From an uncultured Pelagibacteraceae bacterium (GTDB taxonomy: Bacteria > Pseudomonadota > Alphaproteobacteria > Pelagibacterales > Pelagibacteraceae): DNA of 64,000 bases. The DNA lies in contig CACJBX010000004.1 in the NCBI GenBank assembly GCA_902591755.1, forward strand, positions 1-64,000, in the 5' to 3' direction. This document shows positions 27,607 to 31,126 of this stretch, piece by piece. Both the position numbers and the translations under genes were made by a program. A model generated the notes under the pieces. The model was not told the DNA's origin, ran no database searches, and saw nothing but the letters and a program-made list of their open reading frames with translations. Numbering within the stretch: position 1 is the stretch's first letter; every line of letters starts with the position of its first letter.

Positions 27607-28745
27607 AAAAAATTGGAATTATCGGAGCAGGGATATCAGGATTATACATAGCTAATCTTTTTAAAAAAAATCCTAAATATCAAGTATCAATTTTTGATAA
27701 AAAAAACTCTCTTAATCTAGATGAGGGATACGGTATACAATTATCTACAAACAGCGTCAAATTTTTAAATGAAATTGGATTTAACAAATTAGAAAAAAAC
27801 GAAAAATTTAATCCAGAAAAAATAAATTTTTATTCAAAAAAAGATGAAAATAAAATATGTGAATTAGATATATCTAAATTTAACTCAAGTGATTGTAAGT
27901 ATACTACTTTGAAAAGATCTACTTTGATCAATTTCCTAAAAAAAGATTTAGAGGATTTGATCAAAACAAATTTTAATGTGTCGAAAATTGATAAAGAGCA
28001 AGAAAAAATAATACTTACTTTTGAAAATGAAGAAACTCACGAATGTGATTGTCTAATTATTTCTGAAGGGGTTTTTTCAAAAAGTAGAAATCTTGTTTCA
28101 AATAAACAAGTTCAACCAAAATATAACAATACTTTAGCTATAAGGGGAATGATACCCGCAAATTCAAATATAATTGATAAAAAGAATATTTTGTTATTTT
28201 TGGGCTCTGATTTTCATCATGTAATTTATCCTATTTCTCCAGGTGGAGATTTAAACTTAATTGCTATAATGAAATATAAACTTTCAGCAGACGAACAGAA
28301 AAATTACTCATTGTTTGATGATGAATTATTTAAACAAAAAATTTTGGAAAATATTCCCCAAGAGAACAAAGAATTTTTTAATAATCTTAAAGAATTAAAA
28401 ATATTTCCTGTGTTTGTTAGTGATAATTTTTTTGAAGTAAAAATTAAGAACATTTATTTAATTGGAGATGCTTTTTTTGCTTTTCCACCATCATTTGCTC
28501 AAGGCGCATCTCAGTCTATAGAGGGGGCACATGAACTATTTGCTAGTATAGAAAATAATTCTATTGCTAATTTTTTTAAAAATAGGGTTAATAAAACAAA
28601 AATAGTAAATAATAGATCAAAATTGAATCAGTTTGCTTTTCATTTATCAAATCCTTTAACTGTATATCTTAGAAATATTTTTTTAAAAAAATTAGTAAAA
28701 AATAAAAAGTTTTTAGAAAGTTATTTGGGAAAAATTTATAGATAA
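27603..28745 (+). CDS. FAD-dependent monooxygenase (PHBH fold), substrate unknown
   Basis: Flavoprotein hydroxylase of 380 residues. The N-terminal FAD motif is GIIGAGISGLYIANLF, followed by GYGIQLSTNSVKFLNEIGF; the DG motif region is DCLIISEGVFSKSR, and the second FAD motif is YLIGDAFFAFPPSFAQGASQSIEGA. This plan is shared by UbiH-type ubiquinone hydroxylases and salicylate-type hydroxylases. An aromatic or quinone-precursor substrate is inferred. It follows mutY with a 4-nt overlap and ends 10 nt inside the 3' end of ccrM on the other strand. Confidence 0.75.
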   Translation: MKKIGIIGAGISGLYIANLFKKNPKYQVSIFDKKNSLNLDEGYGIQLSTNSVKFLNEIGFNKLEKNEKFNPEKINFYSKKDENKICELDISKFNSSDCKYTTLKRSTLINFLKKDLEDLIKTNFNVSKIDKEQEKIILTFENEETHECDCLIISEGVFSKSRNLVSNKQVQPKYNNTLAIRGMIPANSNIIDKKNILLFLGSDFHHVIYPISPGGDLNLIAIMKYKLSADEQKNYSLFDDELFKQKILENIPQENKEFFNNLKELKIFPVFVSDNFFEVKIKNIYLIGDAFFAFPPSFAQGASQSIEGAHELFASIENNSIANFFKNRVNKTKIVNNRSKLNQFAFHLSNPLTVYLRNIFLKKLVKNKKFLESYLGKIYR

Positions 28746-29815
28746 CTTTTTGACAAGAATTTTTGTCTTAAATTATCTATTGGCACGAAAGTATTTCCTA
28801 ATTCACAATGCCAATAAGTCCATCCATTACAGCTTTCAGCTCCTAAAATTGTAGCTGCAACTTTATGAATTGAACCTTCGGTTTGAGCATGTTTGATACT
28901 CCCATCAACCATAATTTTTGCACTGATTTTCTTCTTATTATCAAAAATAATGGTGCCAGGCTTAATTATTCCCAACTCAACCAATGAACCAAAAGGTATT
29001 CTTGGTTTGGATTTATTGTTTTTAAGCGTATCTAAATAATGATCTTCTATTGGTTTTGTATTCTTTAATCTTTTCTCGGCAACCTTGAAATAGACTTTTT
29101 CTTTTTCTATACCATAATAATTTCTACTCAATTTTTTTGCAACCGTTGCAGTTGTGCCTGATCCTAAAAATGGATCAAGAATTAAATCATCTTTATTTGA
29201 AGTTGCTAATAAAATTCTATGAAGCAAGGCTTCTGGTTTTTGTGTAGAATGAACTTTCTTTCCATTTTTTTTTAAACGTTCTGCTCCGTTGCAAATGGGG
29301 AGATCCCAATTAGATCTCATTTGTAAATCATCATTCAAACATTTTAATGATTGGTAATTAAAAGTATATTTTGAATTCTCTGATTTTGAAGCCCAAATTA
29401 AAGTTTCATGAGCATTCGTAAACCTTGTTCCTCTAAAATTTGGCATTGGATTTTTTTTGTTCCAAATTACATCATTTAAAATCCAAAACCCTAAATTTTG
29501 AATAGCTGTGCCAACTCTAAATATATTATGATAACTTCCTATAACCCAGATTGCTCCATTTTTTTTTAAAATTCTCTTACACTCACTTAACCATGCGTAT
29601 GTGAATTCGTCATATTTCTTAAAACTTTCAAATTGATCCCATTTATCACTTACTGCATTTACTTTTGATCTATCTGGTCTAGTTAGTTTATTTTTTAGTT
29701 GAAGGTTGTATGGCGGATCTGCAAAAACTAAATCGAAAGTCTCATCTGGAATTTTTTTCAATTCTTTAAGACTGTCTCCGTTAATAATTTTGTTTTTTAA
29801 GTTTAACTCTCTCAT
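28736..29815 (-). CDS. ccrM: Cell-cycle-type adenine DNA methyltransferase (GANTC), CcrM
   Basis: N6-adenine methyltransferase of the beta class (359 residues). Motif IV DPPYNLQL lies near residue 33, the FxGxG-type SAM motif is DPFLGSGTTATVAKKLSRNYYG near 215, and the target-recognition stretch DVIWNKKNPMPNFRGTRFTNAHETLIWA is typical of CcrM/HinfI. The C-terminal ~90 residues form the extra DNA-binding domain of CcrM (IPFGSLVELGIIKPG ... SCNGWTYWHCE). No restriction gene is nearby, so it is an orphan methylase. Its leader carries two GANTC sites. Confidence 0.93.
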   Translation of the reverse strand: MRELNLKNKIINGDSLKELKKIPDETFDLVFADPPYNLQLKNKLTRPDRSKVNAVSDKWDQFESFKKYDEFTYAWLSECKRILKKNGAIWVIGSYHNIFRVGTAIQNLGFWILNDVIWNKKNPMPNFRGTRFTNAHETLIWASKSENSKYTFNYQSLKCLNDDLQMRSNWDLPICNGAERLKKNGKKVHSTQKPEALLHRILLATSNKDDLILDPFLGSGTTATVAKKLSRNYYGIEKEKVYFKVAEKRLKNTKPIEDHYLDTLKNNKSKPRIPFGSLVELGIIKPGTIIFDNKKKISAKIMVDGSIKHAQTEGSIHKVAATILGAESCNGWTYWHCELGNTFVPIDNLRQKFLSKSYL

Positions 29816-29895
29816 TTTAAAAGAAACAATTAGACTCTAGGTCAGAGTCCAGGTCAACTCATGATTGAATTAATTTTGATTAATTGTGTCTTCGA
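29816..29895 (-). promoter_or_regulatory. ccrM leader/promoter with two GANTC sites
   Basis: This 80-bp gap between rnhB and ccrM contains GACTC (29833-29837) and GAGTC (29845-29849), both methylation targets of the enzyme encoded downstream. Methylation state could feed back on ccrM expression, as is known for Caulobacter ccrM. An AT-rich dyad TTAATTTTGATTAA (29870-29883) further upstream may be part of the promoter. No clear -35/-10 pair is visible. Confidence 0.5.
29833..29849. repeat. Perfect inverted repeat GACTCT-AGGTC-AGAGTC
   Basis: A 17-bp dyad with 6-bp arms and a 5-nt loop; each arm contains one GANTC site. It begins 18 bp upstream of the ccrM start codon, so in RNA it would form a small hairpin near the ribosome-binding region, and in DNA it could be an operator. 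Confidence 0.8.
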
Positions 29896-30480
29896 TTATT
29901 TGGGACTCAATATATTGTGTATTGGTTTAAATGTTTTTCTATGATGTTTTGTAATTCCAAATTTTTTAATTGCTGAAAGATGATCTCTAGTTCCATAGCC
30001 AACATTTTTATCCCACAAATAAGCTTTGAATTTTTTTGACATTTTTTTAATTAATCGGTCTCTTGATACTTTTGCTAAAATAGATGCTGCAGAAATTTCT
30101 GGAATTTTCTGGTCACCTCTAACAACTGATTTTATATTTAGGTTATTAATATTAGGTTTTTTATTTCCATCAACTTTTACTATTTTAGGTTTGAATTTTA
30201 ATTTTAAAATTGATCTTTTCATTGCCAAAAGAGATGCGTTTAAAATATTAATTTTCTCAATTTCTTTCTTTGAGGCAGTCCCAATAGCCCAATAAGAATT
30301 TTTTTTTATATAGTTTTCCAAAAATTCTCTTTTCTTAGGAGATAATTTTTTTGAGTCTTTTACTTTCTTTTTATCAAAACCTTTTTTAAAGACTACAGTC
30401 GCGGCATATACAGGCCCAATAAGACTACCTCTACCGACCTCATCTACTCCAGCTACATTTTTTTGAGATTTATATTCCAA
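29896..30480 (-). CDS. rnhB: Ribonuclease HII
   Basis: Removes ribonucleotides and RNA primers from DNA (194 residues). The N-terminal catalytic motif is VAGVDEVGRGSLIGPVYAA with the Asp-Glu pair; further carboxylates lie in VKVDGNKKP (~102) and ISAASILAKVSRD (~130). The C-terminal YGTRDHLSAIKKFGITKHHRKTF is characteristic. It starts 11 nt inside the end of the UDG gene. The neighbouring rnhB-ccrM order is common in alphaproteobacteria. Confidence 0.95.
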   Translation of the reverse strand: MEYKSQKNVAGVDEVGRGSLIGPVYAATVVFKKGFDKKKVKDSKKLSPKKREFLENYIKKNSYWAIGTASKKEIEKINILNASLLAMKRSILKLKFKPKIVKVDGNKKPNINNLNIKSVVRGDQKIPEISAASILAKVSRDRLIKKMSKKFKAYLWDKNVGYGTRDHLSAIKKFGITKHHRKTFKPIHNILSPK

Positions 30481-31126
30481 TTTTCAATTCTTTAATTTTA
30501 TTCTTTATTTCTTTTAAATCTGCCCAAGAAAATTTTTTTTGATCAGGCTGTCTTAACAAATAAGCAGGGTGAAAAGTAATCATAGTTAAGTAAGTTTTGT
30601 TATTAACAATTAGTTCTTTCCAAACTCCTCTTGATTTAGAAATTTTCTCCTTATTTCCGAAAAAAGCCTCCATAGCAGTGCTTCCTAATAATATTATTAA
30701 CTTGGGGTTTATTATTGAAATATGTTTTTTTATAAAAGGAGCATAAGTATTAATCTCAACTTCATTAGGTTTTCTATTTTCGGGTGGTCTGTAATTTACT
30801 ATATTTGTTACATAAACTTTATTTCGTTTAATATTTATCGCTGCTAACATTTTGTTCAAAAGTAAGCCTGCGTCGCCTACAAATGGTTTTCCCTGCTCAT
30901 CTTCTTTTTGACCAGGGCCTTCACCTATCAGCATAATGCCACTGTCATGATCACCATCAGCAAAAACTAGATTGTTTGAACTATTTTTTAAATTACAATT
31001 TTCAATATTAGAGATCTCGACCTTAAGTTTTTTAAGCAAATCCTCCTTTTTTTCGATTTTAACAAATCTTTTAATAGGAGCATTTGAGAAGTTAAAAGTA
31101 GATTTGATAAAATTGTATTTTTGCAT
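30470..31126 (-). CDS. Uracil-DNA glycosylase family 4/5-like, lacking Fe-S cysteines
   Basis: UDG-superfamily repair enzyme of 218 residues. It has the active-site motif MLIGEGPGQKEDEQGKPFVG (~65-84), the YVTNIVNYRPPENRKP stretch (~105-120) and the motif TFHPAYLLR near 187. Ordinary family 4 enzymes have four cysteines that bind a [4Fe-4S] cluster; here Cys44 is the only cysteine in the protein and the CRPP position reads YRPP, so no such cluster can form. Uracil removal is still likely. It is upstream of rnhB and divergent from the TPR gene. Confidence 0.85.
   Translation of the reverse strand: MQKYNFIKSTFNFSNAPIKRFVKIEKKEDLLKKLKVEISNIENCNLKNSSNNLVFADGDHDSGIMLIGEGPGQKEDEQGKPFVGDAGLLLNKMLAAINIKRNKVYVTNIVNYRPPENRKPNEVEINTYAPFIKKHISIINPKLIILLGSTAMEAFFGNKEKISKSRGVWKELIVNNKTYLTMITFHPAYLLRQPDQKKFSWADLKEIKNKIKELKIGI

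Follow-up and report, generated by a model that had tools for sequence, protein, structure and literature searches.

Background

The closest described counterparts of the locus considered here come from Caulobacter, whose ccrM gene likewise carries GANTC near its start, the sites being situated in the leader, and for which methylation-dependent timing has been reported. A second set comprises the Caulobacter sigma70 promoters controlled by GcrA and CcrM (ctrA P1, mipZ, ftsN and podJ P2), which have GANTC in the -35/-10 region. In Caulobacter, a class of cell-cycle promoters active at 40–60 min is distinguished by GANTC between -10 and -35 (PMC4287350); the GcrA footprint on fully methylated ctrA P1 extends from -35 to -10, and GcrA binding varies with methylation state (PMC3667746). 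At ftsN, 14% of activity is left after mutation of GANTC (PMC3885167).

Beyond Caulobacter, ccrM has already been predicted to be a likely core GcrA target across the Alphaproteobacteria, in a study that scored YGAKTCK within -200 to +100 and ignored position in the promoter; few high-probability GcrA targets were assigned to Ca. P. ubique, and YGAKTCK itself is the proposed preference of Caulobacter GcrA, one that B. subvibrioides GcrA does not show (PMC7987155). GANTC is under-represented overall and over-represented in the intergenic DNA of Alphaproteobacteria, and CcrM in SAR11 has also been published (PMC3973325). Genome-wide methylation of GANTC, with lower values near the origin, has been described for related Pelagibacter (PMC9516812). 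Caulobacter ccrM is activated by CtrA, whereas Pelagibacter reportedly lacks this regulator (PMC2877005; PMC7987155). In the literature searched, with partial coverage of journals, we found no account of GANTC at fixed positions within the ccrM promoter, nor of such positions being conserved in SAR11.

The ccrM promoter of the window

The window, the whole 64-kb stretch of Pelagibacteraceae DNA that was analysed, encodes on its minus strand (28736–29815) a protein of 359 aa that homology and domains identify as CcrM, the GANTC-specific adenine methyltransferase. The product combines an N6_N4_Mtase domain with a C-terminal RAMA domain, as expected of a CcrM, and scores 457.7 bits against the solved Caulobacter CcrM (6pbd); it falls under the NCBIfam cut-off for the Caulobacter equivalog, with 572 of 830 bits. 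rnhB and a gene for a family-4 uracil-DNA glycosylase precede ccrM in the same direction (29896–31126), rnhB being separated from ccrM by 80 bp.

Judged by its conservation, the feature within this gap is the sigma70-type core promoter of ccrM, with a TTGAC -35 element, a 17-bp spacer and a -10 element, all on the minus strand. The -35 element TTGACC occupies 29852–29857, position 0 of the promoter being 29857, and the -10-like TCTAAT lies at 29829–29834. Between them, GANTC site 1 (GACTC, 29845–29849) sits in the spacer at offset 8, and site 2 (GAGTC, 29833–29837) starts at offset 20 and overlaps the -10. The position of the -10 places the predicted transcription start region at 29821–29822, so that in Pelagibacter transcription should begin 6–7 nt before the ATG and the mRNA would be nearly leaderless. 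At -11, TCTAAT does not have the A normally found there, and its exact register is therefore less certain than that of the -10 in other families; this deviation would fit a promoter that requires help to melt. The preliminary description had put the sites in the ccrM leader, with a possible RNA hairpin near the start codon. They belong instead to the -35/-10 region, as in a GcrA-dependent methylated sigma70 promoter. This ccrM thus carries its GANTC sites in the core promoter, in contrast to the leader position in Caulobacter.

The same description had drawn attention to a perfect inverted repeat, GACTCT-AGGTC-AGAGTC, with a GANTC in each arm. The repeat is indeed present: GACTCTAGGTCAGAGTC is located at 29833–29849, both of its arms contain GANTC, and the distance to the ccrM ATG (29815, minus strand) is 17 nt rather than the 18 bp first given. 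The window holds about half as many GANTC sites as expected (94 against 179.7); within it, the pair upstream of ccrM is the sole case of two sites spaced within 14 bp, and ccrM is alone among the 67 called genes in having at least two GANTC in the 60 bp upstream, which answers the concern that such sites might be equally common in unrelated intergenic regions. In the 1.01-Mb assembly searched, the exact dyad pattern occurs once. GANTC-N7-GANTC is not enriched genome-wide (6 occurrences, 5 for the reversed control), which argues that the location of the pair counts and not its spacing alone, and GANTCTAAT likewise shows no enrichment in this genome. A GcrA regulon of the same strict design was considered and rejected, TTGAC-GANTC-TANNNT being found at 6 distinct places in the genome, below the reversed control.

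Conservation within Pelagibacter

Together with 80 related loci, the window provides 81 Pelagibacter ccrM upstream regions. In all 81, TTGAC is followed by 18 bases, TCTAAT and, after a further 12–14 nt, ATG, an invariance that is partly built in as regards TTGAC and TCTAAT, since the pattern TTGAC-N18-TCTAAT was used to locate the promoters for tabulation; the layout is nevertheless directly visible in the unfiltered listing for 79 loci and was seen separately in L081. With TTGAC set to 0, 78 of the 81 sequences have site 1, which starts at offset 8 in 11 of them and at offset 9 in 67, and 79 have site 2, starting at offset 20. Both sites are intact in 76/81 and at least one in every sequence, three having lost site 1, two site 2 and none both. 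Site 1 may read GAATC, GACTC or GAGTC, its N and its register varying while GANTC is retained. Matches to the TTGAC-GANTC motif number 87 in the 80 SAR11 loci (526 kb), about one per locus.

The 6-bp dyad fares quite differently, being found in only four of the 81 sequences (the window, L005, L065 and L067). By this comparison it is the methylation sites that are under conservation and not the dyad, and the proposal that the dyad would prove conserved across SAR11 ccrM upstream regions fails. The broader proposal of methylation control at ccrM stands in its GANTC part, the sites being strongly conserved upstream of the gene, and falls in its dyad and hairpin part. Given that conservation, it is very likely that ccrM remains under methylation-linked control in SAR11, much as had been suggested.

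Comparison across the order and class

The design reaches beyond Pelagibacter. In a sister family (f2), a GANTC stands at 19 in 20/20 sequences and at 8 in 15/20, with a -10 CATATT in 19/20 and the TTGAC -35 also in place; this and other families have in addition a GANTC, often GATTC, at about -14/-15. Genera g2 and g4 mostly combine GATTC at 9 with a lower GAATC that overlaps the -10, and genus g5 has one GANTC site in the ccrM promoter. Most sequences of genera g12 and g9 lack GANTC there, though GcrA is present. Within the order, all four bases are represented at the N of GANTC. In L159–L166 (g2, g4), the second GANTC is at offset 25 and overlaps a -10-like TTGAAT about 6 nt from the ATG, which suggests that their ccrM mRNA may be leaderless.

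For the class, we sampled 80 alphaproteobacterial genomes, one from each of 80 other families. TTGAC-N2-6-GANTC-N3-8-GANTC was found in 25/80 and one or both sites in 45/80; among 100 dinucleotide shuffles the pair was found 0 times and either single site at most 3 times, and on the opposite strand of the class sample the pair gave 0 and each single site 1. Site positions cluster at 7–10 and 19, both of which were part of the search, and a third site at -15/-14, outside the selection, is present in 18 of the 45 promoters. In columns that were likewise unselected, every class promoter with a site at 19 has A at 24 (A-11) and T at 28 (T-7) (27/27), and this invariance identifies 23–28 as a -10 element CANNNT, whose C is the final base of GANTC site 2, behind a 17-bp spacer. 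On this comparative evidence, the promoter arrangement is conserved and very likely functional, and selection is shown to act in it on GANTC as such.

Candidate readers

GcrA (PF07750) is encoded in the window's own genome (G000:C1:58798-59229, 6.4e-39) and was detected in 128/147 family genomes. The 166-aa protein matches both the DNA-binding and the sigma-binding domain of solved Caulobacter GcrA. The locus excerpt L120 (G000:C1:57000-61000) holds gcrA at 1799–2299. No GANTC lies within about 160 bp upstream of SAR11 gcrA, whereas the promoter region of Agrobacterium gcrA contains six sites in 250 bp (PMC11514494). Neither site 1 (GGACTCT) nor site 2 (AGAGTCT) of the window fully matches YGAKTCK, as no Y precedes either of them and the N of site 1 is C.

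Across the 80 class genomes, GcrA presence shows no association with sites in the ccrM promoter (34/61 with GcrA, 11/19 without; Fisher p = 1). The 11 GcrA-negative loci with GANTC are L208, L217, L240, L241, L242, L252, L258, L265, L266, L269 and L271, several of which have the full pair. The first-pass search may miss divergent GcrA; two further searches of the negatives again put none above the family cut-off, and G222 gave only a weak C-terminal match. Since 11 of the 19 genomes keep their sites, another reader or a direct effect of methylation may be involved.

Mechanism and alternatives

Methylation-controlled, GcrA-assisted autoregulation of ccrM is, in our judgement, the best reading of this promoter and probably the correct one, albeit held with some reserve. 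RNA polymerase with sigma70 would bind TTGACC and the weak -10, with two CcrM targets separated by about one helical turn in the spacer, of which the second is joined to the -10. Both GANTC sites would be methylated by CcrM and rendered hemimethylated by replication, and GcrA, a sigma70 cofactor, would read the methylation state and thereby set promoter opening. As the marks that GcrA reads would be made by CcrM and hemimethylated by replication, CcrM would couple its own production to replication. We favour a positive sign, GcrA activating the promoter when its sites are methylated and perhaps preferentially when they are hemimethylated, and a possible shut-off once both are fully methylated. 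Methylation of both sites in this strain, GcrA as their reader and the sign of the regulation are points that we infer. The locus would resemble the Caulobacter promoters ctrA P1, mipZ, ftsN and podJ P2 in the place of its GANTC and in the presence of both GcrA and CcrM in the genome, and would differ from them in having two sites one turn apart with the second joined to the -10, in having ccrM itself as the target and in that the role of GcrA is here a predicted one.

How much of this scheme requires a dedicated reader? The presence of m6A in the spacer and beside the -10 could itself alter promoter melting or sigma contact, yielding a simple negative feedback of CcrM, an explanation to which we give a minor though appreciable chance. 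It draws on the overlap or adjacency of site 2 and the -10 across the class, on the sites kept in genomes where GcrA was not detected, on a modelling paper in which Caulobacter ccrM is transcribed from hemimethylated DNA only (PMC2217572) and on the proposal that full methylation limits sigma recruitment at Agrobacterium gcrA (PMC11514494); however, nearly all SAR11 genomes encode GcrA, which elsewhere reads such sites, and its absence from the 19 class genomes may reflect detection failure or incomplete assembly. Competition by a MucR-type repressor that shields the sites from methylation, as at some Caulobacter GANTC, is highly improbable: MucR binds some unmethylated Caulobacter sites, according to work relayed in PMC7987155, and 42 unmethylated GANTC sites are on record for a Pelagibacter MAG (PMC9516812), but a search of 31 Pelagibacterales genomes returned no ROS_MUCR protein while the Caulobacter control was positive. 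There is just as slim a chance that the core promoter alone is conserved and GANTC incidental to it. Site 2 does overlap the -10 in part; the spacer site, however, differs in position by one base from clade to clade and is variable at its N, yet stays GANTC, all four N bases are found within the order, and other families have a third site, at -15/-14, that played no part in the selection.

Slimmer still is the chance that the dyad matters in itself, as the operator of a dimeric protein or as an RNA hairpin or terminator between rnhB and ccrM. Its 6-bp arms (GACTCT-N5-AGAGTC, with no strand of its own) are perfect, a scan reports a terminator-like match at 29851–29831 and the predicted fold has z = -2.0. 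Yet outside the four sequences that share it the arms are broken with GANTC retained, and transcription is predicted to start downstream of the element. The 81 Pelagibacter sequences exclude a conserved operator, and position together with non-conservation, the stem included, led us to reject the hairpin and the rnhB terminator. With a predicted leader of 6–7 nt the dyad would lie upstream of the main mRNA, which makes an RNA hairpin unlikely; it could be transcribed solely by read-through from rnhB.

GcrA-assisted autoregulation, the preferred reading, would give a very abundant bacterial group, reportedly without CtrA, a precise promoter design for self-control of its cell-cycle methylase. 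The comparison singles out the part of the predicted GcrA–ccrM link that the class has kept, and highlights the genomes with sites and no detected GcrA as places in which to ask about the reader. A bolder idea, which we regard as doubtful, is that the ccrM promoter with GANTC at +8/+19 (and -15) is an ancestral, class-wide autoregulatory methylation switch, with RNA polymerase itself or an unknown protein replacing GcrA, in some families, as the sensor of methylation where the sites border the -10.

Upstream of the -35, Pelagibacter has TTCAATC (29863–29869 on the minus strand of the window) at the same place in 79/81 sequences, about where other families carry the third GANTC, and from its letters it may perhaps be a former CcrM site with part of the sequence retained. 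A further GANTC is found at the end of rnhB (29904–29908, minus strand; -51 of the -35), and 45 of the 81 Pelagibacter sequences have one at most 50 bp upstream of the -35.
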